From positions 1 through 51,687 of the forward strand of contig CALMYE010000114.1 in NCBI GenBank assembly GCA_937873425.1: a DNA stretch of 51,687 nt, given 5' to 3'. Numbering within the stretch: the first letter of the stretch is position 1; every line of letters begins with the position of its first letter. Positions 7,684-42,315 of the stretch are shown here, piece after piece. Both the position numbers and the translations under genes were made by a program. The DNA comes from an uncultured Sphingopyxis sp. GTDB taxonomy: Bacteria > Pseudomonadota > Alphaproteobacteria > Sphingomonadales > Sphingomonadaceae. The notes below the pieces were generated by a model that worked only from the letters and a program-made list of their open reading frames with translations, did not search any database and had not been told where the DNA came from.

Positions 7684-7755
7684 ATGCCCTTGCGCAGGTT
7701 CGTCATCATCAAGGCCGGTGATGAAAATGGCGATATCCTGGGGCGGCGCGCGTGA
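7684..7755 (+). CDS. 23-codon leader reading frame, coupled to the redox gene
   Basis: An ATG at 7684 is preceded by a strong purine-rich Shine-Dalgarno stretch (AGGGGGAAAGG). It opens a 23-codon frame whose product would be MPLRRFVIIKAGDENGDILG followed by RRA. Its TGA (7753-7755) overlaps the GTG start of the large redox gene at 7752 as GTGA. The large gene itself has no good ribosome site in front of its GTG. The leader may therefore set translation of the downstream gene by coupling. It has no clear run of a regulatory amino acid. Whether the peptide itself does anything is unknown. Confidence 0.5.
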   Translation: MPLRRFVIIKAGDENGDILGRRA

Positions 7756-10187
7756 GCGAGCCGGTCAAGGTCGCGATCATCGGGTCGGGCCCTGCGGGGC
7801 TGAGCGCCGCCGCGCGCGCGGGGCAGCTCGGGCTCAGCCATGTGCTGCTGGAAAAGACCGACCATCTCTCCGACACCATCTTCAAATATCAGAAGGGCAA
7901 GCGCGTGCTCGCGACGCCCGAGCGGCTCGATCTGCGCTCCGACTGCCGCTTCGCGGAGGGCGCGCGCGAATATATCCTCGGCAACTGGGACGAGGACGCG
8001 GCGAACAACAAGGTCAACGTCGCCTATCATGCCGATGTCGTCGAGGTGACGGGCGAGAAGGGTGCCTTCGCGATCAAGACCGCGAAGGGTGATGTCATCG
8101 AGGCCGAGAATATCGTCCTCGCCATCGGCACGCAGGGCAATCCGAACCGGCTGCGCTGCGAAGGCAACGACCTGCCGCACATCATCTATCAGGTCGATGA
8201 TCCGGAGGATTTCAAGGACAAGCATATCACCGTCGTCGGATCGGGCGACGCGGGGATCGAAAATGCGCTCGGTGTCGCCGAGGAGGCGCTGGAGAACACC
8301 GTCACCATCCTCAATCGCTCCAAGGATTTCGCGCGTGCCAAGGCGAAGAATGTCTCCGACATGATGGAGGCGGGCGAGAATGGCTTCATGTCGATTCGCA
8401 CCGAGACGCAGCCGAAGAAGGTCGAACCGGGCTGGCTGACGCTGGAAACCCCGACGGGCGACGAGAAGATCCAGTGCGATGTCATCGTCGCGCGGCTGGG
8501 ATCGGTCGCGCCGCGCACCTTCGTCGAATCGATGGGAATCGAATTCACCGGCCCCGACCGCGAGGCTTTTCCCAAATTGTCGCCGACCTTCGAATCGACC
8601 GTCCCCGGCATTTTCGTCATCGGCGCGCTCGCGGGCTATCCGCTGATCAAGCATTGCATGAACCAGGGCTATGACGTCGTCGAGTTCATCAACGGCAACA
8701 CCGGCCTGACTCCGGCCGACGAAAAGGATCTGGCGGCGGTCTTCGCCACCCTGCCGCAGAAGAAACCGGTCAGCGAATGGCTGGAATATCTGCGCGAGCG
8801 CGTCCGCATCTTCGCCGATGTCTCGCCGCTGCAGATGCGCGAGTTCATGCTCGATTCGAAGGTCGCCTATTATGCGAAGGGCGACGTGGTGTTCGAAAAG
8901 GGCGATCCCGGCTCGTCGCTCTTCGCCATCGCCGACGGTCATGCCGAGGTGGAGGTCGGACCCGGCATCACCGTGCCGATCGAGCAGGGGTCGATCTTCG
9001 GCGAGGTCGGCCTGATTTCGGGGCGCAAGCGCGGCGCGACGATCCGCGCCGGGGCGGACGGCATCTTCGTCGAGGTGTCGCGCACCGCTGCGCTCAAGCT
9101 GATGGCGTCGGTGCCGGGCGCCAAGCGCGTGATCGAGCGCATCTCGCTCGAACGGCAATTGCTCCAGATCTTCAAGGGCGGGCTGACCGTCGAGGATCTT
9201 CAGGGCGTCGTCGACGAGGCCGAGGTGATCCGCGTCCCCGCGGGCAAGATCGTGCTGACCGAGGGCGAGCAGGGCGACGACGTCTATGTCATCCGCTCGG
9301 GATCGATGGTGGTGGAGAAGGATATCGGCGGCAAGCCGATCTTCCTGCGCTACCTGCCCGCCGGCAGCTTCTTCGGCGAGATGGGCGTGCTGAGCGGCCA
9401 GCCGCGCAATGCGACGGTGAAGGCGGCGGTCGGCGCCGAGCTGATCAAGCTGACCGGCGAGGGATTCCGCAAGATGCTCGACGCGCGGCCGCAGGTGCGC
9501 GCCGCGACCGAGGCCGCGGTCGCCGAGCGCGCGCAGATGAATGACTTCATCGAATCGCGCAAGGCGAGCTATTCGAGCGCGGTCGATCTTTATTCGGACA
9601 CCGCCAGCTTCATCATGAAGGAGGGGCTGGGCGAAGCGACCGACGCGCTGCTGATCGACGAGAATCTGTGCGTCGGCTGCGACAATTGCGAAAAGGCGTG
9701 CGCTGACAGCCATGAAGGCCTGTCGCGGCTCGACCGCGAGGCGGGCAAGACCTTCGCCCACCTGCACGTGCCGACGAGCTGCCGCCACTGCGAGCATCCG
9801 CACTGCATGGCCGACTGCCCGCCCAACGTCATTCACCGCGGCCCCGACGGCGAGGTGTTCATGGAGCCGGGCTGCATCGGCTGCGGCAACTGCATGCGCA
9901 ACTGCCCCTATGGCGTGATCCGCATGGAAGCCGCGCCGCCGCCCAAGCCGGGGCTGCTAAGCTGGCTGCTGCTCGGCAAGGGGCCGGGGCCGGGCGAGCC
10001 CTCGCCCAAATGGACGAAGAAGCAGCTGGGCGACGAGAAGCCCAAGAAGATCGCGGTCAAATGCGACATGTGCAAGGGCATCGCGGGCGGCCCGGCGTGC
10101 GTGCGCGCCTGCCCGACCGGCGCCGCGATCCGCGTGTCGCCCGAGGAATTCCTGTCGATCGCGCGGCTCGACGAGGGGACGAACTGA
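7752..10187 (+). CDS. FAD/NAD(P) oxidoreductase - double cNMP-binding - four-cluster ferredoxin fusion
   Basis: An 811-residue soluble fusion. Residues 1-315 form a two-dinucleotide-binding-domain flavoprotein, with FAD motif GSGPAG at 11-16 and NAD(P) motif VGSGDAG at 162-168; the CxxC pair of true thioredoxin reductases is absent. Residues about 360-465 and 480-590 are two cyclic-nucleotide-binding domains. The second has a canonical phosphate-binding cassette (FGEMG...PRNATV at 541-556); the first reads FGEVG...RKRGATI. Residues 635-800 hold sixteen cysteines in four groups (640/643/646/650, 677/680/685/689, 708/711/714/718, 771/774/783/787), the pattern of a four-[4Fe-4S] DMSO-reductase-beta-like ferredoxin. 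Its stop overlaps the next gene's start (TGATG). Inferred role: NAD(P)H-to-FeS electron entry that responds to cAMP or cGMP. Confidence 0.88.
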   Translation: MSEPVKVAIIGSGPAGLSAAARAGQLGLSHVLLEKTDHLSDTIFKYQKGKRVLATPERLDLRSDCRFAEGAREYILGNWDEDAANNKVNVAYHADVVEVTGEKGAFAIKTAKGDVIEAENIVLAIGTQGNPNRLRCEGNDLPHIIYQVDDPEDFKDKHITVVGSGDAGIENALGVAEEALENTVTILNRSKDFARAKAKNVSDMMEAGENGFMSIRTETQPKKVEPGWLTLETPTGDEKIQCDVIVARLGSVAPRTFVESMGIEFTGPDREAFPKLSPTFESTVPGIFVIGALAGYPLIKHCMNQGYDVVEFINGNTGLTPADEKDLAAVFATLPQKKPVSEWLEYLRERVRIFADVSPLQMREFMLDSKVAYYAKGDVVFEKGDPGSSLFAIADGHAEVEVGPGITVPIEQGSIFGEVGLISGRKRGATIRAGADGIFVEVSRTAALKLMASVPGAKRVIERISLERQLLQIFKGGLTVEDLQGVVDEAEVIRVPAGKIVLTEGEQGDDVYVIRSGSMVVEKDIGGKPIFLRYLPAGSFFGEMGVLSGQPRNATVKAAVGAELIKLTGEGFRKMLDARPQVRAATEAAVAERAQMNDFIESRKASYSSAVDLYSDTASFIMKEGLGEATDALLIDENLCVGCDNCEKACADSHEGLSRLDREAGKTFAHLHVPTSCRHCEHPHCMADCPPNVIHRGPDGEVFMEPGCIGCGNCMRNCPYGVIRMEAAPPPKPGLLSWLLLGKGPGPGEPSPKWTKKQLGDEKPKKIAVKCDMCKGIAGGPACVRACPTGAAIRVSPEEFLSIARLDEGTN

Positions 10188-11065
10188 TGGCGACCCTGTT
10201 CCAGCGCCGCCGCAACAAGGCGACCCATGTCGAGCGCGTGCGCGAGCAGAAGCATGAAGGATTCCTTCGCTACGCCGGTTTCCGCTGGGCGAAGATTTCG
10301 GGCGCGCTCTGCCTGCTGATCATCGTCAGCTATGCTCTGGTCGACGTCACGCCGCGGCACAATGGCGGCAGCTGGTATGGTTATACGCTCGGCACGATCG
10401 GCGCGTTGCTGATTCTGTGGCTCACCGCACTCGGCTATCGCAAGCGCAGGATGACGAGCGATTACTGGTCGCTGAAGGCCTGGACCTCGGCGCATGTCTA
10501 TCTCGGGCTCAGCTTGATCGTCATCGGCACCTGGCACACGGGCTTCCAGCTCGGCTGGAATGTCCACACGCTCGCCTGGGTGCTGATGATGCTGGTCATC
10601 CTCTCGGGGCTCTACGGCGTGATCGTCTATGCGACGCTGCCGCAGGCGCTGTCGAACAACCGCGAACAGATGACGCAGATGCAGATGCTCGAGGCGATCC
10701 GCGCCTTCGACCGCCAGCTCCACACCGCCGCGCAGCCGCTGTCGCCCGCGGACACGGCGCCGGTGCTCGCCGCGCTCGACGAGGACCCTTTTGCGGGCAA
10801 TATGGTGACGCGGCTGACCGGCCGCTATCCGCGCTGCGCCACGGCGGCGGCGCTGCGCGCGCTCCAGTCGCGGCGTGGCGGCGATGCGGAGATCGAAAAG
10901 GTCGTCGGATTGCTCCAACAAAAGGAGGCGGCGCTGACCCGGCTGCGCAAACATCTGCGGATCAGGGCGCTGCTCGAAATCTGGCTCTATGTGCATGTGC
11001 CGCTGACCTTCGCGCTGATCGCGGCGCTGTCGGCGCACATCATCAGCGTCTTCTTCTACTGGTAG
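10187..11065 (+). CDS. Polytopic cytochrome-b-like membrane protein
   Basis: A 292-residue inner-membrane protein with about five hydrophobic segments (near 37-54, 64-84, 103-121, 127-149 and 264-291). The histidines H103 and H117, and again H270 and H284, are each 14 residues apart within helices; H127 is a further candidate. This is the spacing of bis-histidine two-haem b cytochromes of the ferric reductase/cytochrome b561 type. A soluble loop at about 155-260 separates helices 4 and 5. The ATG at 10187 overlaps the upstream stop. The likely role is to pass electrons across the membrane from the ferredoxin-fusion protein to the multihaem protein. No named family is claimed. Confidence 0.75.
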   Translation: MATLFQRRRNKATHVERVREQKHEGFLRYAGFRWAKISGALCLLIIVSYALVDVTPRHNGGSWYGYTLGTIGALLILWLTALGYRKRRMTSDYWSLKAWTSAHVYLGLSLIVIGTWHTGFQLGWNVHTLAWVLMMLVILSGLYGVIVYATLPQALSNNREQMTQMQMLEAIRAFDRQLHTAAQPLSPADTAPVLAALDEDPFAGNMVTRLTGRYPRCATAAALRALQSRRGGDAEIEKVVGLLQQKEAALTRLRKHLRIRALLEIWLYVHVPLTFALIAALSAHIISVFFYW

Positions 11066-11083
11066 GGCGAGAGGAGGGGGACC

Positions 11084-13018
11084 ATGAGCTTCATCCTGCG
11101 CCGTATCTCGACGACGAAGACCGGCAAGCAGATCGTCCGCGACCAGCCGCTGCCCGGCGACAGCATCACGCTGGGGCGCGAGGGCGACAATAATATCCAC
11201 GTCGCCGACTTGGCGGTGAACCCGCATCATGCGACGATCAGCAGCGCCGACGGACGCCACGTCCGGGTGCAGGCGCAGGAAGGGCTGGGCTTCGACCTCA
11301 ACGGCCGCGCGGTCGAAGTGGCCGATCTCGACAGCGCGGCGGGCGCCGAGCTGCGTTTCGGCGGCCACCGCCTGACCATCGCGCGCGAGGGCGACGACAT
11401 CATCCTGCTCGTCGAGCGGATCGACGAACTGTCGCAATCGTCGAAGGACGTCGACGAGGCGAAGGCCTTTTCGCTCGCGGGAGTGATGCCCGGCAAGCGC
11501 GTCGGCGCATGGACCTTCGCGGTGTTGATGCTGCTCGCCTTTCTCGTCGGGCCGATCTGGGCCTGGCACAGCTACCGCAATGTCGACGAGAGGCCGAAGG
11601 GGTTCCACGCCGACAGCGCCTGGCTGTCCGGGCCGCTGTCGAGCGCCCACGCCAAGCTGAAGGACGACTGCCAGTCGTGCCATGTCGAGCCCTTCGTGGC
11701 GGTCACCGATACCGCCTGCGTCAGCTGCCACACCGGCGAGCACAAGGCGATGAGCACGGCGCATGCGGGCGCGCCGACCGCGATGTTGCTCGCCGCGCGC
11801 GCGCCGAAAGGCGGCTTCGAGAAATTTCTCGCCAATGTCGGTGATGCCTTCAACCGGCCGCAGGGTCGCTGCGTCGATTGCCATACCGAGCATGAGGGCG
11901 CGGGGCCGATGGCGGCGACGCCGCAGAAATTCTGCGCCGACTGCCACGACGGGATGCAGGGCCGGCTGAAGGCGGCGGGGCATCCGACCTTGCTCGCCGA
12001 CGCCGCCGATTTCGGCACCGGCCATCCCGAATTCAGCCCCTATGTCCGCGCCGCGCCGGGCGCCAAGCCGGTGCGCACGCCGATGCGCGAGGGGATGGTC
12101 GATTACAACGGCCTCAAATTCCCGCACGACGTCCATCTGCAGGCGGCCGGCGGCGTCGCGCGCATGGCGGCGAGCTTCCGCGGGCGCTACGACTTCGGCA
12201 ACAAGCTGGAGTGCGAAAATTGCCACCGCGTCGAGTCCGACGGCATACGCGTGAAGCCGGTCGAGATGGAGCGCGACTGCGCGATGTGCCACAGTCTCGC
12301 CTTCGAGACGGTCGGCGGCGTCACGCGCACGCTGCGCCACGGCAAGCCCGATCAGGTCGTCGCCGACCTCATCGCCTATTACCGCTCGACCCCGCCGACG
12401 CGGCCGCTGCAGCTCGGCGGCATGGAGCGGCGGCGCCCCGGCCAATATGCGGAAGGCGAAGTGTACAACATCTATTTCCGCGAGGTCGCGGTGCGGCCGA
12501 CCCGCGCCGAGGATGCGGTGCGCGCGGTCTTTTCCAAGGGCGGCGCCTGTTACGACTGCCACACCATCTTCGCGCCCGCGTCGGGCAACAACTGGCGCGT
12601 GATGGCGGTGAACCAGACGCCGCGCTTCCTGGAGAAGGGCTGGTTCGACCATGACGCGCACCGCGAGACCGAATGCGCCGACTGCCACACCGCCGCCGCC
12701 GGGTCGAAGGCGGCGACCGACTTCCTCGTGCCGGGGCTGCGCCAGTGCCGCGACTGCCACGTCGGCGAGAGCGGCGCGCGGCTGGTGAAGGTCCAGACCG
12801 CGACCGAATCGCCCTGCGCCATGTGCCACGAATATCATTCGGACGGCGGCAAGCCGTGGCAGCCCGACCGGAAACGCAAGAAAACGACGGCCGCAATCAC
12901 AAATCAACCGTCCCGCGATATCTATGCTGTGAGCCTGATCACAGGCCCGACGCCGCGGAAACTCTATGATGTGACTTGGCGCACACCTGCGCTAAGACCC
13001 ACGCACGAGGGTGGATAA
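11084..13018 (+). CDS. FHA domain - membrane helix - decahaem c-type cytochrome
   Basis: A 644-residue protein in three parts. Residues about 10-110 form an FHA (phosphothreonine-binding) domain with ITLGREGDNNIHV at 28-40 and NPHHATI. One transmembrane helix lies at 142-161. The rest is presumed periplasmic and has ten CxxCH haem-attachment motifs (CQSCH, CVSCH, CVDCH, CADCH, CENCH, CAMCH, CYDCH, CADCH, CRDCH, CAMCH). There is no cleavable signal peptide; the internal helix would act as signal anchor. FHA plus decahaem is an uncommon combination. The last 45 or so codons (after KPWQPDRKRKK) look like intergenic DNA of lower G+C and contain two CRP-type sites, so the stop may have been lost or moved. 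Confidence 0.85.
   Translation: MSFILRRISTTKTGKQIVRDQPLPGDSITLGREGDNNIHVADLAVNPHHATISSADGRHVRVQAQEGLGFDLNGRAVEVADLDSAAGAELRFGGHRLTIAREGDDIILLVERIDELSQSSKDVDEAKAFSLAGVMPGKRVGAWTFAVLMLLAFLVGPIWAWHSYRNVDERPKGFHADSAWLSGPLSSAHAKLKDDCQSCHVEPFVAVTDTACVSCHTGEHKAMSTAHAGAPTAMLLAARAPKGGFEKFLANVGDAFNRPQGRCVDCHTEHEGAGPMAATPQKFCADCHDGMQGRLKAAGHPTLLADAADFGTGHPEFSPYVRAAPGAKPVRTPMREGMVDYNGLKFPHDVHLQAAGGVARMAASFRGRYDFGNKLECENCHRVESDGIRVKPVEMERDCAMCHSLAFETVGGVTRTLRHGKPDQVVADLIAYYRSTPPTRPLQLGGMERRRPGQYAEGEVYNIYFREVAVRPTRAEDAVRAVFSKGGACYDCHTIFAPASGNNWRVMAVNQTPRFLEKGWFDHDAHRETECADCHTAAAGSKAATDFLVPGLRQCRDCHVGESGARLVKVQTATESPCAMCHEYHSDGGKPWQPDRKRKKTTAAITNQPSRDIYAVSLITGPTPRKLYDVTWRTPALRPTHEGG
12928..12943. promoter_or_regulatory. 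CRP-type site 1 (perfect TGTGA-N6-TCACA)
   Basis: The 16 bases TGTGAGCCTGATCACA match both half-sites of the CRP/cAMP consensus exactly. The site lies in the 3' end of the decahaem reading frame. Its likely target is the phosphodiesterase gene that starts at 13328. Site 2 is centred exactly 42 bp further on, i.e. four helical turns, on the same face of the DNA. Confidence 0.6.
12970..12985. promoter_or_regulatory. CRP-type site 2 (TGTGA-N6-GCACA)
   Basis: The 16 bases TGTGACTTGGCGCACA match nine of the ten consensus half-site positions. The centre is 42 bp downstream of site 1. Together they suggest a CRP-family-controlled promoter reading rightward into the phosphodiesterase gene. An inverted-repeat element starting at 13046 separates them from that gene. 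Confidence 0.55.
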
Positions 13019-13327: not shown

Positions 13328-14176
13328 ATGCTGATCGCCCAGATCACCGATATCCATATCGGGTTCGATCCGGACAATCCGGCCGAATATAACCGCAAGC
13401 GCCTCGACGAGGTGCTCGACGTGCTGATCGAGGGGCCGAACCGTCCCGACCTGCTGCTCGCCACCGGCGACATCACCGACCGCGGCGACGCCGACAGCTA
13501 CCGCCGGCTCGAAACCGCCTTCTCGCGCTGTCCCTTTCCCGTCTGGCCCAGCGTCGGCAACCACGACCTGCGCGACAATTTCCACGCCCGCTTTCCGGGC
13601 TACGACGACGGCAACGGCTTCGTCCAGTACACGATCGAGCTTCCCGAGCTGCGGCTGGTGACGATCGACACGCTGGAGGAAGGGCGCCACGGCGGCGCCT
13701 TTTGCGAGGCCCGCGCGGCGTGGCTCGACGCCGAACTGGCGAAGGCGCCCGCCAAGCCGACCTATATCGTCATGCACCACCCGCCGGTCGAAAGCGGTAT
13801 CGAGTGGATGAACACCGATCATCGCGAACCCTGGGTCGCGACCTTCACCGAGGTCGTCCGCCGCCACCCGCAGGTGCGCGGCCTGATCTGCGGCCACCTC
13901 CACCGCAGCGTCACCGTCGCGTGGGAGGGGCGCACCGTCGCCATCTGCTCCTCGACCGCGCCGCAGGTGTCGCTCGACCTCAGGCCCATCGACGAGGATG
14001 TGCCCGACGACCGCCCGATGATCGTCGCCGAGGACCCCGCCTATGCGCTCCATTACTGGAACGGGCGCGAACTCGTCAGCTTCTACGACTATGCCGGCGC
14101 CCACACGATGCTCGCCAAATATGACGAACGGCTGCAGCCGCTGGTGCGCGAACTGAAGGCCGAACGGCCGCGCTGA
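13328..14176 (+). CDS. CpdA/GpdQ-like class III metallophosphodiesterase
   Basis: A 282-residue calcineurin-fold metallophosphoesterase. The binuclear-metal motifs are in order: D8/H10 in ITDIHIG, D48 in TGDITDRGD, N78/H79 in VGNHD, MHHPP and CGHLHRS. It has the length and spacing of cAMP phosphodiesterase CpdA and glycerophosphodiesterase GpdQ. The start is ATG 13328 with GGGGA five bases upstream; the in-frame extension to 13079 would cross the inverted-repeat element and is rejected. cAMP as substrate is inferred from the CRP-type sites upstream and the cNMP-binding redox protein in the neighbouring operon. GpdQ-type phosphodiesters remain possible. Confidence 0.85.
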   Translation: MLIAQITDIHIGFDPDNPAEYNRKRLDEVLDVLIEGPNRPDLLLATGDITDRGDADSYRRLETAFSRCPFPVWPSVGNHDLRDNFHARFPGYDDGNGFVQYTIELPELRLVTIDTLEEGRHGGAFCEARAAWLDAELAKAPAKPTYIVMHHPPVESGIEWMNTDHREPWVATFTEVVRRHPQVRGLICGHLHRSVTVAWEGRTVAICSSTAPQVSLDLRPIDEDVPDDRPMIVAEDPAYALHYWNGRELVSFYDYAGAHTMLAKYDERLQPLVRELKAERPR

Positions 14177-17635: not shown

Positions 17636-17832
17636 AGGGGCTGTGGGGATTCGGATTGAATCCTCTTCCACAATGAAAAAGGGCCGTGTGCTCCCGCGAA
17701 GGCGGGAGCCCATCTCCGGTGGGTGCGAGATGGAACCGGCAGGAGATGGGTCCCCGCCTTCGCGGGGACACATGGTTTTTCCTTGTGACGCCTGGAACAG
17801 GCGATCCCCAACCTGAATCCCCACAGCCCCTA
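17636..17832. repeat. Nested inverted repeats at the 3' end of the TpsA gene
   Basis: An outer pair of 18-bp perfect arms (17636-17653 and 17815-17832; the right arm includes the TpsA stop codon) encloses an inner REP-like pair at about 17690-17716 and 17747-17772 with the core CCCGCGAAGGCGGG and a CCCATCTCC/GGAGATGGG extension. The 380-bp gap between cysS and tpsA therefore consists almost wholly of repeat elements. The outer dyad could serve as a large terminator-like structure. Confidence 0.7.
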
Positions 17833-20800
17833 ATCGACCGGCGGCGTCCACAGATCGTCGTTGCCCGCGCCCGTCACCGGATCGTCGAGCAGCGGCTCGC
17901 CGGTCAGCGGGTCGAGATCGCGCATGGTGATCAGCGGGATCGGCAGGCCCAGCCCGTCGGCATCCTCGCCTTCGCCCTCCTCCTCGCGCTCGATCACGTC
18001 CTGCACCGGGAAGCTGCTGCTGTGATGATGATCGTCGATCAGGACGACGCAGCTGGCGGGATTGGCGATGACGCAGCCGTTCACCGTCGATCCCGAATCA
18101 AAGGCCAGGCCGCTGCCGCTCAGCGGCCCGCTGCCGAGCACGAAGCCGTCGATCGACATCAGCGGAATGACGTCGAGGCCGGTGACCTGGCCCGACGAGC
18201 CGAGGTGAACGCCATTGATGACGATCCGCGAATTCGCGTCCTCGACGTTCACATTGAGCCCCAGCGGACCGAAGGTCAGCCCGCGCCGCTCGTCAAAGGC
18301 GGTGCCGGTGCCGCTGTTCTGGACATAGAAGCCGCCGGTGACGCTGACGTCGATCCCGCCCGCGAACAGCGCGCCATCGTCGAGGACAATGCCGTCGTTC
18401 TGCGCCAGCCGGTCGTTGATCGCGCCGATGCCCGTCGCCGAGCCGACGTCGCTGATTGCCGAAGCCGTGGCGACGATCACATCGTCGGACACCAGGTTCA
18501 ACATGCCGCCGGGGGCCGATCCGCTGCCGGTCAGCCGGATCGTGCCTTCGCCCAATATGACCTCCAGCGCATCGTCGGCGAATATGCTGAAGCTGTTGCT
18601 GTCCGACATGCCGGTGAGCGCGGCATCGCCGATCACGCGCGCCTTGCCCGGGGTCGCGATGGTCAGCGATCCGCTGGCGCCGATGTTCGACGTCGATCCG
18701 CCCGCGGTGACCGTGAAATCGTCGATGACGACGTCGGGCGGATCGCTGCTGCCGACGCTGGCGATCGGCACCGGCAGGGCGCCGGGCGCCAAGGCGACGA
18801 AGCCGCCCTGATTGCTGTTGATGCGCGGCGCAAAGATGGTGATGTCGTTGCCGAACAGCCGGGTCATCTCGTCGGCGTCGAGGTGATAGCTGGAGCGCGT
18901 CCCGGTGCCGCCGACGAAGGTCGTTTCGTCGGATGTATTGCGCACGTCGAGTATCTCGGTCGTGCCGCCGGTGCCGAGCCGCCCGTTCGCGCCGATCGCG
19001 ATGTCGTGCGATCCCAGCGACATCTGACGCCCGGTCACGCCGCCGTTCACGGTCAGCATGCCCGACGCCTCGCCGAACAGCGTCTCGTCGGCGGTGACCG
19101 ACCCCAGCGTCATGGTGTTGCTCGACTCCAGTTCGATGTCGGTCGCGGCGAGCTGGGTGATGTCCAGATTGAAGCCGGAACGCAGCGTCGCGGTGCCCGC
19201 CACCTGGCCGCTGGTGACCGACAGATTGCCGCTGGTGGTGACCGACGCGTCGCCGACGTCGGTTTCGAGCTGGCTGAAGACCAGCGAGCCGCCGCCGCTC
19301 GCGATCAGGATGCTGTCGGCGCTCGCCGTGACCGGCCCGGCGGAATTGAAACTGCCGATCTCGACATTGCCGCCAGCGCTGGTCAGCGTCGTCGGGCCGC
19401 CGCTGACGATCAGGCCGCCGATCACGCCGTCGGCGCCGTCGAGCGTCAGCGTGCCGCCCGCGCCGCTGACCGCCTGCTGGACATCGACCGTCGTTCCCGC
19501 GGTCAGCGACAGGTCGCCGCCGGCGCGCAGGACGCTGGCATCGATCGCATCGCTGGTCACGACGGTCAGATTGCGACCGGCGTTGATCGTATCGAGCACA
19601 GTGTTGTTCGGATCGACCAGCGTTGCCATCGTCACGCTGTCGGCGGTGATCGACGTGTCGCGCCCGCTGCGGATCGCGCCGGTGACGTCGACCACGCCGC
19701 TCGACTGGACATCGACATCGTCGAAGGCGTCGAGGCCGGACAGCGTGGCGTCGCCGCTTTGCGTGAAGATGCCGCTGGCGCCGCCGGTCTGGCCGAGGCC
19801 GAGCGTCGTCGCGCCGGTGACGGCCAGCGTCGTCGCGGCGTCGATGAAGATGTCGTCGCCCGCCGACAGGTCGGTCGCGGTGACCGAGCTGCCGGTCGAA
19901 CGCAGGTCGATGTCGGCGCCGTCGATCGAGGAGGCGCCCTCGCCCTGGCCGATGGTGAAGCCGCCGCTCGAGCTGTAGTTGAGCAGGAAGCCGTCGGGAC
20001 CGGCGCCCGTCGCGCTGGCGTCGGTCACCGTCACCGCGTCCGCCGCCCGCACGTCGAGGTCGTCGCCGACGGTGATGTGGGCCAGATCTGCGGTCGTCCC
20101 CGCGAGCACCAGCAAATCCTCGCCCGCGGTGACATGGGTCAGCGTGGCCGATCCGCCGGCGTTGACGCCGAACATGCCCGCGGCGCTGCTGTCGGTCAGC
20201 ACGACGTCGCCGGCCGCGTCGGTGAAAACATTGCCTGCGGTGTTGACGTCGCCGTTGCTGGGATCGGGCGCGCCGCCCGCGGCATTGGCGGTCACGATTA
20301 TGTCGGCGGCGGAACTCAGCGCGATGTCGCCGCCGGCATTGTAGATGCCGGTCAGGTCGCCCGCCGCGAAGACGCCGATATTGCCCGCGATGCTCGCCTG
20401 GCCGATGGCGACCGGCCCGCCGGTGCCGACCGCCGACAGCGATCCGCCCGCCGCGATCGAATCGACCGCGATGCTGCTGCCGTCGAGGAGGACGTCGGTC
20501 CCGGCGAGGATCGCCGTGCCCGCGATGCCTTCGCCCGGCGCGGAGCCGGTCGCATGCAGATCGACATAGTCGCCCGCGTCGAGCGTGACGAAGGCGATCG
20601 ACTGCGCATCGACGTCGATGAAGCCGCCTGCGGTCGAATTGCCGAGGTCGGCGGGGCCGTCCGCGGTGATGTCGATATTGCCGCCGGTGATGATCGAATT
20701 GAGCCCGGTCGAGAAGCTCGCCACATTGGCGGTGAAATCGTCGGCCGCTTCGCCATGTTCGACATGGAGATGGCCGGCGAGCACGGCCTCGACATTGCTG

Positions 20801-23800
20801 CCGATCTCTTCGCCTCCCGGATTCTCTCCGCTCGCGTTCATGAACGCGATGGTGACGTCGCCGCTGCCCTGAAGGAAAATGTCGTCGCCCGCCACCAGCC
20901 GGTTGAAGTCGCCGCCGTCCGCCGTCGTGATGGAAATGTCGCGGAACGATTCGATTTCGCCGGTCGAGGTGATGCCGCCGCTGGTCGAGGTCAGCTGGAC
21001 GAACGAACCCGACAAACTGCCGAGTTCGATGCTCGCGCCTTCGATGATCGCGCCGTTCCCCGCGCGCACATCGCCCGTCAGGCTGACCGCGCCGGTCGCA
21101 ATCGCGTCGAAACCGCCGTCGGTGTCGATGGTGCCGGTCGCGGTGATGTCGCCCGCCGATGCGAACAGCCCGACCGATCCGTTCGGCGCGGTGATGTTGC
21201 CGACGCTCACCTCGCTGCCCAGCGCGGCAAAGCCGACATTGGCGTTCACATCGCCGCCGACGTCGATCGCGCCGCCGCCCTCGAGCCGTCCGAAGAAGCC
21301 CGCGGTCAGTGCGCCGGTGCCGATCGACCCGTCCGCCGTGAACAGCAGGTTGCCGCCCGCCGTCGCCGCGCCGGTCGCGATATCGCCCCCGGCGACGAGG
21401 ATCAGGTCGATGCCCGCGTCGAGCTCGGCCACGTCGACGTCGCCCGCCGCGTCGATGTTCAGATTCTGCCCGGCCGCGACGATGCCGGTGCCGGTGACGC
21501 CGCCCGTCGTCGCGGTCAGGTCGATGCTGGTGCCGGCGAACAGATCGTTGAAGAGGATCGACGTGCCGCTGACCGTCACCGATCCCCCGGCGTCCGAATT
21601 GCCGAGATCGACGTCGCCGACGCTGTCGATGTCGATGTCGCCGCCGGTGATGATCGAATCGAGCCCGGTCGCGAAGCTGCCGACGATGGCGGTGAAGTCG
21701 TTGTCGGCCTCGGCATGTTCGACCGTCGTCGCGGCGGTCGAGCGGATGAAGATGTTGGACCCGTCGAGTTCGGAATCGAACCCGCTGCCGTCCGTGATCA
21801 GCGAGCCCGCTACGACGGTGCCGCCGATCAGGCTGATGTCGTCGCCCGCGCTCGCGTCGTTGACCGCGACCTCGTTCGCGGCGTTGGCGAACAGATCGTC
21901 GCCGCTGGTCGACGTGCCATAGACGTTGATCCGTCCCGCCTGTGCGATGAGGAAGGTCGATGTCTGGGCATCGAGCGAATCGACGTCGATCGCCCCGTCG
22001 ATGCCATTGACCACCATCGACAGGCTGTCGCCGGTGCTCACGAGGCCACCCTCCGCGCTGCGGATGCTGTTCACCGCGGTGAAGGACGCGCTGCCGCCGG
22101 TCTGGATCGTCGGTGCGTCGCCGTCGCGGAAATCGTGCCGGATATCGACCTGGTCCTCGACCGCGACGGTCAGGTCGCCGCCGACGTTCAACTGCCCGCT
22201 GCCCTGCGCATAGACGCCGACCGAGCTGCCCGTGGTCAGCGCCATCGCGCCGTCGGTCTGGATCAGCCCGCCGTCGAGGACGCTCATGAAGATGCCGCGC
22301 GGCGCGACGTCGGTGTCGTTGTTGGTGGGGTCGGCGAAGCCGGCCGCCTGGGCGGTCAGGCTCGTCATGGTGATCGTGCCTTCCGCGATCAGCTCGATCC
22401 GCCCGGCGATGAAGCCGTCGGTGTCGATGCTTGTGTCGCCGAGGCTGATCCGGCCGGTCTCCGATGCCGAATTCAATGCCTGGATGATACCCCTGCCGCC
22501 CTGATCGACGAAGCCCGAGCAGCAGCCGCCGCTGCCGCCGGTCCCGTCGCCGCCGTCGCCGCCGTCGCCCGACTGGCCCGTCGCGGAGAGGAAGACCGGC
22601 GCACCGTCCGAATCGATGGTCGCGCCGATCGCGGTCAGCTGCACCGTGCCGCCGATTCCCGCGCCGGCGATGCCGCCGTCGCCGCCGGTGAAGTTCACGA
22701 CCTCATCGTCCATGGTGCCCAGCTCGCCGTCGGGGCCGGGCAGGGTGACCGATCCGAAATTGTCGGCGCCGCGGCCGCCGTCGCCGCCGACGCCGTTGCT
22801 GCTCAGGCTGCCGGCCAGCGCCACCACCGCTCCGTCGCTGGCAAGGATGTTCAGCGTGCCGCCGTTGCCGTCGCCGCCGTTGCCGCCCGCCGGGCCGGCG
22901 ACGGCGGACATGAAGTCCACGAAGGCGTCCCCACCGTTGCCGCCGGTTCCCGTGGTGATGAAATTGCCCGCCGCGATGAAGGCTCGGCCGTCCTCGCCCA
23001 GGACCTCCACGGACGCGGTTCCGCCGCTGCCGAAGCCGCCGTTGCCGCCCGCGCCGTTCTGCCCGTTGCCGCCGTCGCCGCCGGTGGCGCCGGCGTCGAC
23101 GACCATCAGGTCCAGCGTTCCCGCGGGGATATTGTCGATGACGACCGCCGCGGTGCCGCCCTGGCCGCCGCCGCCGTCGCCGCCGGTGCTGTTGTTGCTG
23201 CCCGCGCCGCCTTCGCCGCGCGCCCGGACGGCGATCGTGTCGTTCGCCTCCGCATCCAGCGTCGCGAAGCGGATCGTCGCGATGCCGCCATGGCCCAGCC
23301 CGCCGCTGCCGCCCGCTCCGGCGCCGCCCGGCGTGGGGGTGGTGAACAGGATGACCTCGCCGCCCGCGCCGCCGATGCCGCTCGCGTCCGCGATCATTTC
23401 GTCGGTGTTCAGCGTCCCCGCGATCAGGTTGATTTCGGCGGTGCCGCCGAAGCTGTCGCCGCCGCTGCCGGTGCCGCCGGCCGATCCGCCGAACAAGAGA
23501 TAGTCGCCGCCGGCGCCGCCGAATCCCATCGCGGATGCGATGATCTCCGTCGCGCCGACATCCGTTGTGCCGTCGAGGTTGATCGTCGCCGTGCCGCCCC
23601 GGCCTTCGCCGCCGGCGGTCGCGGCTATGTCGTTGGCCGGATCGCCATCGCTGTAGCCGGCCTGCCCCGCCCCGCCGCTTCCTTCTGCATAGGCGACTAT
23701 CGTCTCGCCCCTGTATGTGCCGCCGTTGAAGTTGATCGTGGCGACGCCGCCTTCGCCGCGTCCGGCCGGCGCGTTCCCCAGCGCCGCGCCGCCCTCGCCG

Positions 23801-26880: not shown

Positions 26881-26908
26881 GGCGAAGGTCCTCGAAACAA
26901 AGCTCATC

Positions 26909-28732
26909 TCAGCGCGCCTTCACGCCGAACTGGGTGGTGAAGGAGAGCAGGAAACGCGGGTCGGGCCGCTGCGGCAGGAAAGTCGGACGGTTGAGCGGCA
27001 CCGCGACCGTCAGGTCGAGCCGCCCGACGTCGCCATAGGCGAGGCGCAGGCCGCCGCCCGCCGAATAGAGCTTCTGCGGGTTGAACCCGTTGAAGGCGGC
27101 ATCCTTGTTCCACACCCAGGTGGCGTCGAAGAAGGCGAAGGGCTGAAAGGCCACGCTTTCGCGGTTGGCGGGGATCAGCGAGCCATATTTCGCCTCGAGC
27201 GCGACCGCGACGCCGCTGTCGCCGATCACCGTGCCGGGGTCGAAGCCCCGTCCGACGGTGAAATTGCCGCCCGAAAATTCCTCATAGGCGAGCAGCGGGT
27301 CGCTCGCCCATTGCGCGCGCGGCGCCGCCGACAGGGTGAGCTGCTTGACCGGTCGCCATTCGGCGAGCGCGCTGGCGCGCAACAGGAAGGCGTCGGGTTT
27401 GCCCTCGACGCGGGTCAGCGGGATCGCGCCGGGCGCGAAGCAGGCGGCACCGGCCGGGCCGCAATCGTCGCTCGCGCCGAGGAACTTCACGCCCTGCCGC
27501 GCTTCGAGCGAGCCGCCCATATACCAGCGCGGCTCGGCCGGGCTGAAACCGCCGCGCCCGGCGACCGAGGCGGGGTCGGTCCAGCTCGCGTCGGCGCGCA
27601 GGTTGAAGACGCGCAGCCGGTCGCGGTTGATCGGCACGCCGCCGAAGGCGATGTCCTGGTCGATGAAGTCGAGCCCGCCGCCGATGGTCAGCCGCCGTGC
27701 CTGCGTCAGCACCAGCGGATAGGATGCGAACAGGCTGACGATCTGGGTCTCCGACTTGATCGGCAGTCCCGCGACATCGGGCTTGGTCCAGGCATAGGTG
27801 AAGCTGCCGCCCAGCTTCAGCCCCTCGCTGCCGACGCGGAATTCATGCGCGACTTGCGCGACATTCTGTTCCTCGAAATCGGGGGTCGAATAGAAGCTGA
27901 CCGTGGTCAGGTCGCCCATGCCGGTCAGGCCGGGGATGCGCGCCCGCACGATGCCGCCCCAGCGCCCGACGTCCTTCGACCCGAAATTCTGGATATTGGC
28001 GTCGAACAGCGCGGCGGTGCGCTCGACCGTCACCTCGCCGACGACCTCGCCGGGGGCGGCGCCGGGGCGCAGCGTCAGCCGCGCCGACAGGCCGGGAATG
28101 TCGCGCGCGAGCAGCAGATAGCGCTCGGCATCGACGATGTTGAACACCGGCTGGTCGTCGAGGTGCGAGAGGTAGCGTTGCAGCAGCTTCTCGGATCGCC
28201 CGGCGTCGCCGCGCACCTCGATGCGGCTCATCCGCGCCGCCAATATGTCGAATCGCACGACCCCGTCGTCGATGGTCTGCGGCGGCACGCGCACCGCGGC
28301 CAGATAGCCCTTCGACCGCAGGATCGTCGCCGCGCGGTCGCGAATGTCGCACACCGCCGCGATCGGCAGATCCTGTCCGACGCGGTCGCTCCAGGCGGGG
28401 CCGAGCATGGCGGGGTCGATGCCCTCGACCGGCGAAAATTGCACGTTGCGCAGCGTGATGCGGATATGCGCGAATTCGGGGTTGGCGAGCGGGCAGGGCG
28501 CGCGCTCGATCGCGTCGTCGGCGGTGACGATCTGCTCGCTCGGGAGCGGCGTGGCGGGCGGCGGCGGGCGCTGGATTTCCTCGCGCGTCGGAATCTGCGG
28601 CGTCCCCTGCGCCTGCGCGGCGACTGGCAGCACCGCCGCCAGGATCAGCCCGGAGCCGGCGAGAATCGCCGCTCGCAGATGCCGCACCGGACGGTTCTCG
28701 CCCGTCTGCTTCCGAAGCCCCTTGCCGTTCAT
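26909..28732 (-). CDS. ShlB/FhaC-family outer-membrane transporter (TpsB)
   Basis: A 607-residue protein starting at ATG 28732 with AAGGGGG upstream. It has a signal peptide to about residue 42 (AAVLPVAAQAQ) and a proline-rich linker. Two POTRA-like regions follow (about 70-240, including HIRITLRNVQFSPVEGID and MSRIEVRGDAG), then a beta-barrel rich in alternating aromatic/hydrophobic strands. The loop-6 motif of the Omp85/TpsB superfamily appears as GRGFDPG. It should export the TpsA exoprotein across the outer membrane. Its stop is 28 bases before the TpsA ATG. Confidence 0.95.
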   Translation of the reverse strand: MNGKGLRKQTGENRPVRHLRAAILAGSGLILAAVLPVAAQAQGTPQIPTREEIQRPPPPATPLPSEQIVTADDAIERAPCPLANPEFAHIRITLRNVQFSPVEGIDPAMLGPAWSDRVGQDLPIAAVCDIRDRAATILRSKGYLAAVRVPPQTIDDGVVRFDILAARMSRIEVRGDAGRSEKLLQRYLSHLDDQPVFNIVDAERYLLLARDIPGLSARLTLRPGAAPGEVVGEVTVERTAALFDANIQNFGSKDVGRWGGIVRARIPGLTGMGDLTTVSFYSTPDFEEQNVAQVAHEFRVGSEGLKLGGSFTYAWTKPDVAGLPIKSETQIVSLFASYPLVLTQARRLTIGGGLDFIDQDIAFGGVPINRDRLRVFNLRADASWTDPASVAGRGGFSPAEPRWYMGGSLEARQGVKFLGASDDCGPAGAACFAPGAIPLTRVEGKPDAFLLRASALAEWRPVKQLTLSAAPRAQWASDPLLAYEEFSGGNFTVGRGFDPGTVIGDSGVAVALEAKYGSLIPANRESVAFQPFAFFDATWVWNKDAAFNGFNPQKLYSAGGGLRLAYGDVGRLDLTVAVPLNRPTFLPQRPDPRFLLSFTTQFGVKAR

Positions 28733-28914: not shown

Positions 28915-29676
28915 TCATCCCGTTGCGTTTTCCTCCGCCGACATCGCATCGACCAGCCGGTCGAGCTGCGGCGAGCAGCCCTTCGCCACCAGCATGTCGG
29001 CCGACGCTTCGGGGGTTTCCGGCATCGCCTCGAGCGGGGCGAAGCGCACCGTCACCGGCGCGGCGAGTCCGCCGCCCGAAAAGCGGTAGTCGATGTCATA
29101 TTGCAGCGGCACTTCGGCCGGCCAGCGCTTGAACTGCGCATCCTTCTTGAGCTCGGTGCTGCCGGCCTTGCCGGCACCCTCGACCCGCACCACCGTGTCG
29201 GCGCTGGCGTCGGGGCGCCACAGCAGCAAGGTCGCGGGGTCGGCGACGCAGAAGGTGCCGCCCTCGCGATAGTCGAGCAGCCACAGGTTCGGCGCGCGGA
29301 CGATGGCGGGCGCTTCCTCTTCCGGGCCGCGGGTGAATCCGCCGCGCGACTGCGTCGGCGGGCGCTTGGCGATCATCCGCGTCACGGTGGTGCCCATCGA
29401 CTGGCTCAACTGCACCGGCGCGCTGGTGTTGAAGGTGCCGGCGCCGGTCAGCGTCCGGGTCTTGCCGTCCTGAATCAGCACCAGCCGGTCGCCGGCGACC
29501 AGCGTCACGCGCTCGCCGGCCTTGAACTTGGTGCCGGTCGGATATTGGCTCGCCGATGGCCCTGTGGATCGCACCACCATCGACTGTGCGGCGGCGGTGC
29601 CCGCAACGGCCATCGCCGCGACGGCTGCAGCGGTGGTCAATGCCAGGCGGCTCATACGGATGTCAGGAAAGGACAT
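28915..29676 (-). CDS. Exported protein of unknown function with FecR-like segment
   Basis: A 253-residue protein with signal peptide MSRLALTTAAAVAAMAVAGTAAAQ. The following segment (YPTGTKFKAGERVTLVAGDR, LVLIQDGKTRTLTGAGTF) has the shape of a FecR/surface-layer beta domain, but this is a resemblance only. The C-terminal half has single Cys residues in FCVADPATLLLW and AKGCSPQLDRLVD that could pair in the periplasm. ATG 29676 has AGGAG six bases upstream and overlaps the end of the cyclase gene by 14 bases, so the two are translationally linked. It is probably a periplasmic partner of the cyclase or CHAT protein. Confidence 0.7.
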   Translation of the reverse strand: MSFPDIRMSRLALTTAAAVAAMAVAGTAAAQSMVVRSTGPSASQYPTGTKFKAGERVTLVAGDRLVLIQDGKTRTLTGAGTFNTSAPVQLSQSMGTTVTRMIAKRPPTQSRGGFTRGPEEEAPAIVRAPNLWLLDYREGGTFCVADPATLLLWRPDASADTVVRVEGAGKAGSTELKKDAQFKRWPAEVPLQYDIDYRFSGGGLAAPVTVRFAPLEAMPETPEASADMLVAKGCSPQLDRLVDAMSAEENATG

Positions 29677-31744
29677 AGCTTTCTCCTGTTTCGGTCTCGT
29701 TCAATCGTTCTATCAAGAACATTATGGCTGTATCCTGACTGAATTCGGCGCCGATCGCTGTGGCGTGCGTCACATAGGCATTTTTATCGCCCGCGGCGTG
29801 CGCTGCAACCATTTCGGCGATTCGCGCCCGCTGATCGGGCGTCAGGTCGCCGCGCGGGGTCAGCACATCGACCGGCTGTGCGCGCCCGCGCAGCGTGACC
29901 CGGCCCATCGGCACCAGATCGTCGCGCCCGGCGCGCGCCGCCGCCTCGGCGGAGATCAGCACGCCGGTCCTGATGCTCTTGTTCGCGGCCTCGAGTCGCG
30001 ACGCGGTGTTCATGCTGTCGCCGAGCGCGGTATACTGGATGCGATCCTCGCCGCCGAAATTGCCGACGATCGCGTCGCCGACATGCAGCCCGACGCGCGT
30101 CATGCCGATGGGCGGAACATCCTCGGCGGCCAGATCGATGCGGAATTTCTCGCCCGCCTCGTACATCGCGAGCGCCGCCGCTGCGGCGCGCGGCCCGTCG
30201 TCGGGCCGGCTGAGCGGCGCCCCCCAGAAGGCGACGACCGCGTCACCGACGAACTTGTCGATCGTCCCGCCATGATCGAGCACGACGTCGGAGAGGCGGT
30301 CGAGATATTCGTTGAGCAGCCGCGCGACCGTTTCCGGCGTCGTCGCATGGCTCATCTTGGTGAAGCCTTCGAGGTCGGTGAAGACGCAGAAGATGTTGCG
30401 CCGCTCCCCGTGCAGCGACAATTGCTCGGGATCGCGCATGATCTGCGCCGCGACGTCGGCGGGCAGATATTTGCCGAGCGCCGACTGGGCGAAGGCGCGC
30501 TGCTGCGACCCGATGGTGCGCGCCGCGGTGCCGACCGCGGCATAGCCGAACAGCCAGCCGAGCGCCTGTCCGAAGGCGGGCAGGCCGGTGGTATCGACGC
30601 CGACCTTCTGCAGCCAGAAGGGATAGGCGAGGAAGAAGGCCATCTGCCCGATGAAGATAAGCACCACCCAGCGCGTCCTGAGGTCGATCAGGCTGGTCAG
30701 CCCGCCCGCGAGCACGACGAGCAGCGCGAGCGTCCACAGCGCCCAGCCGGGGATCGGTTTCGCCCAGGCCCCGTCGAGCTGTTGCGCCAGCATATGCGCG
30801 TGGACCTCCAGCCCCACCATCGTCTCGCGCTCGCCCGACTGCAGGTCGGGCAGGCGCGACAGCGGCGTCGCGAACTGGTCGGTGTCGATGATGTCGCCGC
30901 CGATCAGCACATAGCGGTCCTTCACCAACTCTCCGAAGCCGGCCAGCGTGTCTTCGTCCATCTGCATCGCGAAGCCGTCGATGGGGATATTGGCGAAGAC
31001 CGGCTCTTCCTCGCCCTCGGTCGCGCGTGCGGGCATCAGGAAGCGGATATTGCCCTGATAGTCGGCATGGGCCGGATCGATCGGCGCCATCGCATTGGCC
31101 ATCAGCGGCGGCAGCCCCTCCGGCCGGTCGGGCCATTTGCGGATGACCCCGTCGGCCTCGACGCTGAAGCGAACGCTCGTCGGCTTCGTCTTCGCCGTCG
31201 CCACATCGGCGATGAAGCCTTCCAGAAACTTCTGCTGTTCATAGAAGATGGTGTTGGGATTGCTCGCCTGCTCGACATAGGCGATCCAGGTGGGCGTCCG
31301 CATCGCCCGGAGCTGCGTCTGCAGCACATCGTCGTCGGGGCGCGGGGAATCGAAACCGATATCGATGCCGATCGCCTTCGCCCCCATCCGGTCGATGTTG
31401 GCGAGCGCATTGGCGAGCAAAGTGCGGTCGAGCGGCGACCTGATGCCGGTGTTGAACAAGGTCTCGTCATTATAGGTGATCATGACGATGCGCGGGTCCT
31501 GGCCGACGTGCGGTGCCATCAGGGTCGCGCGGCTGTCGTAGAGCGCACGCTCGGCATCGCCGATCAGCGGCAGGCCCCAGCTCGTCCGCGCGATCAGCAC
31601 GGCGACGAGCAGGAACAATAGCGTCGTCGCCATCCGTGCCGGGCCAAGCTGGGTGAACAGCCGCCGCAGCCGCCGGCGCAGCGGGACGGCGGGAGGCCGG
31701 TCCGGCTGACCTGCCTCGATTTCAATCGGCGGCGCGTCGGTCAT
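29663..31744 (-). CDS. CHASE2-domain class III adenylate/guanylate cyclase
   Basis: A 693-residue inner-membrane receptor cyclase. After an N-terminal helix (about 39-52) comes a large periplasmic CHASE2 domain (about 60-320, with DSRATLMAPH, IGIDIGFDSPRPDDD and YVLIGGDIIDTDQF). Three closely spaced helices follow (about 335-415), then the cytoplasmic class III cyclase domain. The metal-binding aspartates are present (D457 in FTDLEGFTKMS, D501 in DKFVGDAVVAFWG), as are GLHVGDAIVGNFG and TALGDSMNTASRLE, so it should be active. The start is four bases after the CHAT gene stop. The signal sensed is unknown; the context suggests envelope or surface events. Confidence 0.94.
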   Translation of the reverse strand: MTDAPPIEIEAGQPDRPPAVPLRRRLRRLFTQLGPARMATTLLFLLVAVLIARTSWGLPLIGDAERALYDSRATLMAPHVGQDPRIVMITYNDETLFNTGIRSPLDRTLLANALANIDRMGAKAIGIDIGFDSPRPDDDVLQTQLRAMRTPTWIAYVEQASNPNTIFYEQQKFLEGFIADVATAKTKPTSVRFSVEADGVIRKWPDRPEGLPPLMANAMAPIDPAHADYQGNIRFLMPARATEGEEEPVFANIPIDGFAMQMDEDTLAGFGELVKDRYVLIGGDIIDTDQFATPLSRLPDLQSGERETMVGLEVHAHMLAQQLDGAWAKPIPGWALWTLALLVVLAGGLTSLIDLRTRWVVLIFIGQMAFFLAYPFWLQKVGVDTTGLPAFGQALGWLFGYAAVGTAARTIGSQQRAFAQSALGKYLPADVAAQIMRDPEQLSLHGERRNIFCVFTDLEGFTKMSHATTPETVARLLNEYLDRLSDVVLDHGGTIDKFVGDAVVAFWGAPLSRPDDGPRAAAAALAMYEAGEKFRIDLAAEDVPPIGMTRVGLHVGDAIVGNFGGEDRIQYTALGDSMNTASRLEAANKSIRTGVLISAEAAARAGRDDLVPMGRVTLRGRAQPVDVLTPRGDLTPDQRARIAEMVAAHAAGDKNAYVTHATAIGAEFSQDTAIMFLIERLNETETGESYVLS

Positions 31745-42232: not shown

Positions 42233-42315
42233 CCGGCGGCATATGATCCCGTGACGGCGGGACCGGCGCACGCCCGTTGACGCGCGCCGGTTCCGTCCCG
42301 GGGACGGAAGGGCCT

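Follow-up and report, generated by a model that had tools for sequence, protein, structure and literature searches.

The closest described relatives of the gene cluster analysed here are the putative porin-cytochrome conduits PCC3 and PCC4 (He et al. 2017, PMC5566968; this and the other papers named below are cited from the excerpts available of them). The inner-membrane proteins of PCC3 and PCC4 share the pattern WX3HX13H / SGXXG / WX3HX13H, which those authors read as two b haems. They also saw other cytochromes beside similar inner-membrane proteins, and since these clusters mostly held no porin, extracellular transfer was thought less likely there. A separate survey of iron oxidisers lists, in its Table 1, a cluster 403 'Forkhead-associated protein' with ten haem motifs in 27 of 87 genomes, among Gallionellaceae (PMC10734462). 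Here we analysed a stretch of 51,687 nucleotides from an uncultured Sphingopyxis sp. (contig CALMYE010000114.1, C114 in our numbering, from a genome of 4.34 Mb), referred to below as the window. In it, three consecutive genes, P1, P2 and P3, encode a flavoprotein with two cyclic-nucleotide-binding (CNB) domains and a ferredoxin, a predicted di-haem b membrane protein, and a decahaem protein with an FHA-type domain. Judged from their sequences, these genes probably encode a transmembrane electron conduit.

An earlier interpretation of the letters alone (the sequence-only reading) had described three neighbouring open reading frames (ORFs) with this domain make-up and with defined counts of Cys, His and CxxCH motifs, all of which we recovered. 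The three ORFs lie on the + strand, P1 and P2 overlapping by 1 base and P2 and P3 being 18 bases apart. P1 starts at the GTG at 7752 and not at 7684, where an ATG reaches a stop after 23 codons. The parts of the three proteins are as follows.

7752..10187, + strand: P1, 811 aa, NAD(P)H-type flavoprotein with two CNB domains and a four-cluster ferredoxin (Pfam, conserved Cys and cassettes)
7752..8741, + strand: flavoprotein domain of P1, Pyr_redox/YpdA-like, without CxxC, about aa 1-330 (Pfam/NCBIfam)
8844..9161, + strand: CNB domain 1 of P1, about aa 365-470, cassette FGEVGLISGRKRGAT at 416-430 (Pfam, family alignment)
9204..9551, + strand: CNB domain 2 of P1, about aa 485-600, cassette FGEMGVLSGQPRNAT at 541-555 (Pfam, family alignment)
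9648..10151, + strand: ferredoxin domain of P1, about aa 633-800, sixteen Cys (Pfam, family alignment)
10187..11065, + strand: P2, 292 aa, predicted di-haem b inner-membrane protein (W/H/SGXXG motifs as in PCC3/PCC4, PMC5566968)
11084..13018, + strand: P3, 644 aa, FHA-type domain, one transmembrane helix and a decahaem c-type domain (Pfam, CxxCH count)
11084..11398, + strand: FHA-type domain of P3, about aa 1-105, GR present, phosphate-contact Ser gone (Pfam, alignments)
11648..12853, + strand: decahaem region of P3, about aa 189-590 (CxxCH, conserved His)

Conservation of the probable inner-membrane half

The order sample comprised 196 genomes, 52 of which hold P2 relatives, with strong matches (below 1e-80) in 39; the 13 weak matches, three of them in the window's own family (G145, G171, G188), were left out of the co-occurrence table. 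For the family we used stretches of roughly 20 kb, one of them cut short by a contig end, from 30 of the 38 strong-P2 genomes other than the window's, together with two Sphingobium plasmids, and homologues of P1, P2 and P3 were all present in each of these 32 loci. Named loci were taken from the best 80 of 587 P2 matches, where the closest relatives with names are Sphingopyxis and the counts therefore lean to close relatives; loci cut by contig ends were excluded from each count. Given enough flank, P1 stands at most 3 kb upstream of P2 (72 of 72 loci), a decahaem gene at most 1.5 kb downstream (77 of 77) and a phosphodiesterase-like gene at most 3.5 kb downstream (72 of 73); the median gaps are -1 base between P1 and P2 and 10 between P2 and P3. 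The sequence-only reading had proposed looking for genomes in which the three architectures co-occur in the same order, and this is what these loci show. P2 relatives also occur in 57 of 385 genomes of the class and 57 of 398 of the phylum, many of the phylum matches being partial. Genes in the mapped loci were called by our own script, and errors are present among the calls.

Pfam matched Pyr_redox_2 at residues 6-306 of P1, followed by two cNMP_binding stretches (9.8e-32) and by 4Fe-4S dicluster matches over sixteen Cys that fall into four groups at 640-787. The G-E and the Arg of the cassette have phosphate-binding roles in CNB domains. These residues of both cassettes, and all sixteen Cys, are invariant in 33 of 33 aligned family members (the window plus the 32 loci) and again in 28 of 28 flavoprotein-bearing P1 relatives outside the family, so that both cassettes are intact in all 61 sequences, drawn from many families. 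By this measure both CNB domains are predicted to have a working pocket. The residue after the cassette Arg is G in domain 1 of the family and T, N or S in domain 2; it was considered as a guide to the choice between cGMP and cAMP and judged too weak to use. A thioredoxin reductase label for P1, against which the sequence-only reading had warned, can be set aside, as there is no CxxC before residue 640.

P2 contains the motifs W99-x3-H103-x13-H117, S140GLYG144 and W266-x3-H270-x13-H284, that is, two WX3HX13H and one SGXXG in the arrangement of the PCC3/PCC4 inner-membrane proteins, with the His of each pair (H103/H117 and H270/H284) 14 residues apart. All four His are invariant in the 33 family members. 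In a comparison of 33 P2s from four architectures, with identities down to about 19%, only 11 columns remained invariant (G69, H103, G107, H117, S140, G141, G144, W266, H270, P272 and H284), and four of these are the motif His.

A single strong hydrophobic helix spans residues 140-158 of P3, and the protein contains exactly ten CxxCH. Every one of the 32 family loci has this number, as do 76 of 79 named loci; among the other three copies, one is full-length with 9 and two are truncated at a contig end (0 and 5 CxxCH). Past the helix, nine further His show no variation in 45 of 45 sequences, as would be expected of second haem ligands. One locus (L036), in which the automatic end overran the stop of P3, was left out of the P3 profile alignment and kept in the family residue counts.

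In two genomes (L248 and L251) P1 and P2 form a single ORF, 1123 aa long in one case and 1118 aa in the other, which has both motif pairs and the order flavoprotein, two CNB domains, ferredoxin, P2; the FHA protein encoded next has nine CxxCH plus a longer motif of haem type. Because the two proteins are fused there, a physical complex of P1 and P2 is supported, and it should be noted that both genomes belong to one genus, so that the fusion may represent one event.

A probable outer half, separately encoded

On another contig of the window's genome (C190) we found a run of genes for a 4-haem C554-type cytochrome, an HbpS-like protein, a porin-like protein and a 10-haem LVIVD cytochrome. The big outer cytochrome of this genome is cut by the end of C190, and its C-terminal part stands at the end of C123. 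A gene for c-type cytochrome assembly is also present in the genome. In the outer-half run, the HbpS-like domain protein stands between the 4-haem cytochrome and the porin-like protein (L207:5768-7780 and relatives).

The big outer cytochrome (below 1e-50) occurs in 39 of the 196 order genomes, and these are exactly the 39 with strong P2. The two genes are within 40 kb of each other in 22 of the 39. Of the 17 remaining pairs, 11 are on different contigs, where a contig break is possible, and 6 are on one contig and far apart (G035, G065, G080, G110, G119, G193). In G159 the pair has likely been split by such a break, the phosphodiesterase-like gene standing beside the big cytochrome there. Conversely, five genomes (G088, G091, G025, G050, G117) have neither of the two genes, and others of their genera (g1, g3, g4, g6 and g15) have both. 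The six genomes with distant genes on one contig and the paired absences inside genera are the stronger points in this co-occurrence. Where the halves are apart, 6 of the 7 outer loci fetched show the whole run from 4-haem cytochrome to 10-haem cytochrome; for the seventh (L265) the gene calls contain no more than an HbpS match and a single long 10-haem ORF. Of 20 loci from other families of Alphaproteobacteria (L086-L105), 14 encode a porin-like protein together with a 10-haem LVIVD cytochrome in one stretch, preceded by an HbpS-like protein; for the outer-half proteins of these and of the sphingomonad loci, one protein was checked per type. Some of the remaining loci carry 4- and 5-haem cytochromes instead. 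In each of 36 porin-like proteins the last residue ahead of a true stop is Y or F, and an aromatic C-terminal residue is typical of outer-membrane barrels. With the conserved gene order, the two P1-P2 fusions, the invariant ligands and this co-occurring half of outer-membrane type, the transmembrane conduit put forward in the sequence-only reading is well supported.

Cyclic-nucleotide genes, a proposed mechanism and its alternatives

Two further genes in the window could connect the conduit to cyclic-nucleotide signalling.

13328..14176, + strand: class III cyclic-nucleotide phosphodiesterase-like metallophosphoesterase (SpdA/CpdA-like), the cluster's fourth gene (profile scores, metal motifs)
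29663..31744, - strand: CHASE2 domain with a class III cyclase having adenylyl-type residues, candidate cAMP source, associated and not adjacent (domains, co-occurrence)

The phosphodiesterase-like protein scored 142.5 bits with the SpdA profile (cut-off 400) and 81.2 bits with that of CpdA (cut-off 225), missing both equivalog cut-offs. The motifs D-x-H, GD, GNH[DE] and GH-x-H, which are the metal motifs of class III cyclic-nucleotide phosphodiesterases, are present in 75 of 75 relatives. The gene is found in 39 of 39 P2 genomes compared with 9 of 157 others. The CHASE2 cyclase carries the Lys and Asp that mark adenylyl cyclases and occurs in 36 of 39 P2 genomes compared with 7 of 157 others; in 28 of the 36 its distance from P2 or the outer cytochrome is within 31 kb (nearest P2 in 5, nearest the cytochrome in 23), and all 43 genomes with the cyclase also have the phosphodiesterase-like gene. 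The cyclase search had been meant as a negative control and came out positive, and an MNIO gene of the same window then served as the control: it is present in 25 of 39 P2 genomes and 74 of 157 others, a weak association (P 0.07, these P-values ignoring the relatedness of the genomes). This gene belongs to a set at 41759-43957 (+) made up of a Cys-rich short protein, an MbnB/TglH/ChrH (MNIO) enzyme and a DUF2063 protein, a layout that we take to be that of a bufferin-type RiPP set. The protein adjoining the cyclase (1041 aa, 31749-34874, -) has a CHAT domain at its C-terminus.

We propose that P1, P2 and P3 form the inner-membrane half of an electron conduit of the PCC3/PCC4 porin-cytochrome kind. 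Electrons would enter P1 from NAD(P)H and pass by way of FAD to four [4Fe-4S] clusters; two stacked b haems in P2 would take them through the membrane to the membrane-anchored decahaem P3, docked onto P1 by its FHA domain, and from there they would reach the separately encoded outer half with its 4-haem cytochrome, HbpS-like protein, porin-like barrel and 10-haem LVIVD cytochrome. The two CNB domains of P1 would set this flow in response to cAMP, which the CHASE2 adenylyl cyclase would synthesise and the product of the phosphodiesterase-like gene behind P3 would break down. What the sequences themselves show is the architecture, the gene order, the fusions, the co-occurrence and the invariance of ligands and cassettes; occupied haem and cluster sites, outward flow, FHA docking, gating and cAMP as the ligand are inferred from them. 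The explanation as a whole, that is, a third-type conduit with an FHA dock and cAMP-set flow, is one that we judge somewhat probable from sequence comparison. The outward direction of flow is likely. Cyclic-nucleotide control, already suggested in the sequence-only reading, is plausible and gains from the intact cassettes, the adjacent phosphodiesterase-like gene and the co-occurring cyclase; we lean towards it. The boldest version, in which cAMP directly opens and closes the wire, with a cyclase and a phosphodiesterase of its own and a degenerate FHA domain as the dock between flavoprotein and decahaem protein, in 39 of the 196 order genomes and in other Pseudomonadota, is possible but falls short of probable.

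A number of observations weigh against this picture. P2 is above no Pfam cut-off, its sole match being a weak one to cytochrome b561 (seen in 15 of 33 P2s scanned, at best 2.4e-6), and its hydropathy profile has four strong transmembrane segments, with helix 3 weak at 1.25; a profile search of the PDB with P2 gave nothing useful. The porin reading rests on the C-terminal residue: a strand count was raised modestly in the porin-like proteins, less than in PCC3 porins, and carries little weight given that it failed on TpsB, a Pfam barrel, and a PDB profile search with the porin-like protein found no match. No convincing shared regulator site was found in 72 stretches upstream of P1, among which there is no perfect FNR, CRP, Dnr or EcfG site. 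The best FNR matches were somewhat better than those of shuffled sequences (3 mismatches in 34 stretches versus 18.6 expected), and since many of the 72 are near-identical Sphingopyxis sequences, we draw nothing from this excess. Outside the sphingomonads the CNB domains persist, yet a phosphodiesterase relative was seen in just 1 of 56 mapped loci (L239), four genes off. Seven genomes, each belonging to genus g12, have the cyclase and no conduit, and 9 genomes (8 of them in g12) have the phosphodiesterase-like gene and no conduit, so these genes may serve something else. Lastly, a TpsB secretion gene near the cyclase is present in 35 of 39 P2 genomes versus 12 of 157 others and lies within 31 kb in 19 of the 35; with an association almost as strong as that of the cyclase, it raises the possibility that the cyclase link comes from an island inherited as a whole.

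The last two points are also those on which a real but ungated conduit would draw, with CNB domains that are structural or bind nothing physiological and with the cyclase and phosphodiesterase as passengers of an island. The flavoprotein-ferredoxins of PCC3-like clusters are without CNB domains; overall, 6 of the 67 called genes that combine flavoprotein and ferredoxin have none. We nevertheless consider such a conduit doubtful. The G-E...R residues kept in both cassettes of all 61 sequences are not what is expected of ligand-free domains, PCC4-like relatives also have CNB domains on their ferredoxin, and the phosphodiesterase-like gene follows P3 in 72 of 73 named loci, compared with TpsB in 0 and the cyclase in 4 of the 58 full named loci of about 20 kb. 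The sequence-only reading had located part of the control elsewhere, in phosphothreonine binding by the FHA domain of the output protein P3. That domain has a recognisable fold (20.4 bits over the whole protein against a Pfam cut-off of 20.7, and 24.1 bits in the genome scan), and its GR arginine and the following His are invariant in the family. In phosphothreonine-binding FHA domains the phosphate is contacted by Arg and Ser and by the Asn of NG. The Arg is kept in 33 of 33 family members and 27 of 27 others and the Asn in 12 of 33 and 19 of 27, but the Ser is absent from at least 31 of the 33 family members (present in at most 2) and aligns in 3 of the 27 others, an alignment that is less sure around the Ser, the following His aligning in 13. 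Moreover, FHA tracks the flavoprotein domain: among 69 loci with both subunits readable, both occur in 59, neither in 9 and one without the other in 1 (L107, where a GR...HH FHA-like start can be discerned by eye), and in the 9 FHA-less loci a Cys-rich domain before the helix takes the place of FHA. Phosphothreonine control of the conduit is therefore unlikely, and gating of P3 by this route in particular very much so; the claim of a phosphoprotein-responsive output is not supported. Because FHA presence follows the flavoprotein domain, we infer that FHA is a dock for it, although the linkage probably reflects a single evolutionary split and the correlation is then one of few events.

The remaining alternatives concern what the conduit does. 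Electrons could flow inwards, from an outside source such as Fe(II), another cell or a reduced compound to NAD(P)H or quinone. He et al. draw PCC3 and PCC4 of iron oxidisers in this way, with electrons from an extracellular donor ending in the quinone pool (PMC5566968), and the 10-haem FHA protein of PMC10734462 is listed in iron-oxidising Gallionellaceae. The flavoprotein and ferredoxin of P1, on the other hand, point to a soluble NAD(P)H partner and not to quinone. Furthermore, sphingomonads are heterotrophs, and transfer from NADPH to a multihaem cytochrome is downhill, the reverse needing an input of energy, all of which makes inward flow unlikely. Rather improbable, too, is a conduit that feeds a specific reductase, in which the 10-haem LVIVD protein would act, within the periplasm or the outer membrane, on one particular substrate such as an oxyanion. 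Among NCBIfam profiles, ExtM of selenite/tellurite clusters (NF040943) does score best with the LVIVD cytochrome, yet its 64 bits (Sphingobium copy) are far below the cut-off of 800, the best stretch covers about 50 residues, and alongside the cytochrome there is a gene for a porin-like protein, with an aromatic C-terminus in all 36 cases.

Two neighbouring features should be mentioned here. The window contains a pair resembling a two-partner secretion system (17830-28732, -), namely a 3025-aa repeat-rich protein of secreted type without Pfam match and a ShlB/FhaC-type transporter; despite the co-occurrence of TpsB noted above, its absence from the full named loci led us to reject these genes as conduit parts. 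The seven genomes of genus g12 with cyclase and phosphodiesterase-like gene and no strong P2 (G103, G112, G120, G141, G166, G190, G195) offer a possible natural separation of signal and output.

If the proposed gating is real, a cAMP-switched wire would be the redox counterpart of a cyclic-nucleotide-gated ion channel and would add a novel means of controlling transmembrane electron flow. To our knowledge, second messengers act via transcription in known electron conduits, such as those of Shewanella, whereas CNB domains in the input enzyme together with a neighbouring phosphodiesterase-like gene would make electron export switchable at the protein level. The proposal also gives a specific, testable role to an inner-membrane protein family that was predicted in 2017 and for which we found no tested function in the literature searched. 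It assigns a likely conduit to common heterotrophs, the sphingomonads, and the natural P1-P2 fusions are available for biochemistry.

Comparison with known systems

The sequence-only reading knew of no characterised system with this architecture. None was found by us either, and in open-licence literature we met neither a description of a cluster combining CNB, FHA and multihaem proteins nor a paper recognisable as dealing with a multihaem or extracellular electron conduit of sphingomonads. The available Sphingopyxis granuli literature contained no mention of these genes, the accessible part of PMC11475568 held no relevant term except inner membrane, and PMC4999443 was a false lead. The claim has to be narrowed all the same, as the core is known: the P2 type occurs in PCC3/PCC4 (PMC5566968), and an FHA decahaem protein has been listed (PMC10734462).

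For single proteins the nearest named relatives are more distant. The flavoprotein domain of P1 is closest to YpdA/Bdr and thioredoxin reductase flavoproteins, from which it differs by a score of 129 bits with the YpdA/Bdr profile TIGR04018 (cut-off 339.9) and by the missing CxxC. The MtrCAB and MtoAB conduits resemble the present one in that decahaem cytochromes and a barrel-type protein cross the outer membrane. Their input is a quinol oxidase of the CymA type; here it is an NAD(P)H-type flavoprotein-ferredoxin, and P3 reaches 22.5 bits with the DmsE-type decahaem profile TIGR03508, well below its cut-off of 192.2. Cluster 403 of PMC10734462, likened to P3 by description only, shares the ten haem motifs and the FHA annotation and is listed under 'Other', without gene neighbours or a model.

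PCC4 of He et al. (2017, PMC5566968) has an inner-membrane protein, a 10-haem cytochrome, a porin and, in subgroup II, an Fe-S gene upstream. Our group III loci resemble PCC4. A Pfam scan of one of their Fe-S proteins showed CNB domains; in contrast to the P1-P3 loci, flavoprotein and FHA domains are missing in all 9 readable cases. In these PCC4-like clusters (L113, L114, L116, L117, L118, L119, L120, L244, L245) it is the ferredoxin protein that carries the CNB domains, and the 10-haem protein begins with a Cys-rich domain and not with FHA. The cytochromes of PCC4 have 4, 5 and 10 haems, and the main text of PMC5566968 names neither CNB nor FHA. In the window's genome we find 10 (P3) and then 4 and 10 haems with the porin-like protein; a 5-haem gene is absent from the 10-kb contig C190 and from the window, the rest of the genome not having been searched.

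PCC3 (PMC5566968) has an inner-membrane protein of about 300 aa with SGXXG in helix 4 and WX3HX13H in helices 3 and 5, beside multihaem cytochromes and a porin. P2 shares exactly these motifs. It is 292 aa long and may have the five transmembrane helices of the PCC3/PCC4 proteins, four segments being strong by hydropathy and the third helix weaker. Our group IV loci look like PCC3. The periplasmic and extracellular cytochromes of PCC3, however, have about 21 and 34 haems (medians), compared with 10 in P3 and 10 in the outer cytochrome. Pfam also found no CNB domain in the PCC3-like flavoprotein-ferredoxin that was scanned. For the porin missing from most other clusters seen by He et al., a separately encoded porin operon is a possible answer. 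In a midpoint-rooted tree of 71 P2 sequences (weak or short L072, L073, L112, L115 and L120 omitted, as were L252 and L256, which have no called P2), the 13 PCC3-like loci all fall in one clade of 15 (support 1.0) and 8 PCC4-like loci in a clade of 10 whose node is unsupported (0.03). The 40 flavoprotein-CNB-ferredoxin loci all fall in another clade, of 42 sequences (support 0.91), and because they have this clade of their own, P1-P3 look like a third type beside PCC3 and PCC4 of the putative porin-cytochrome kind.

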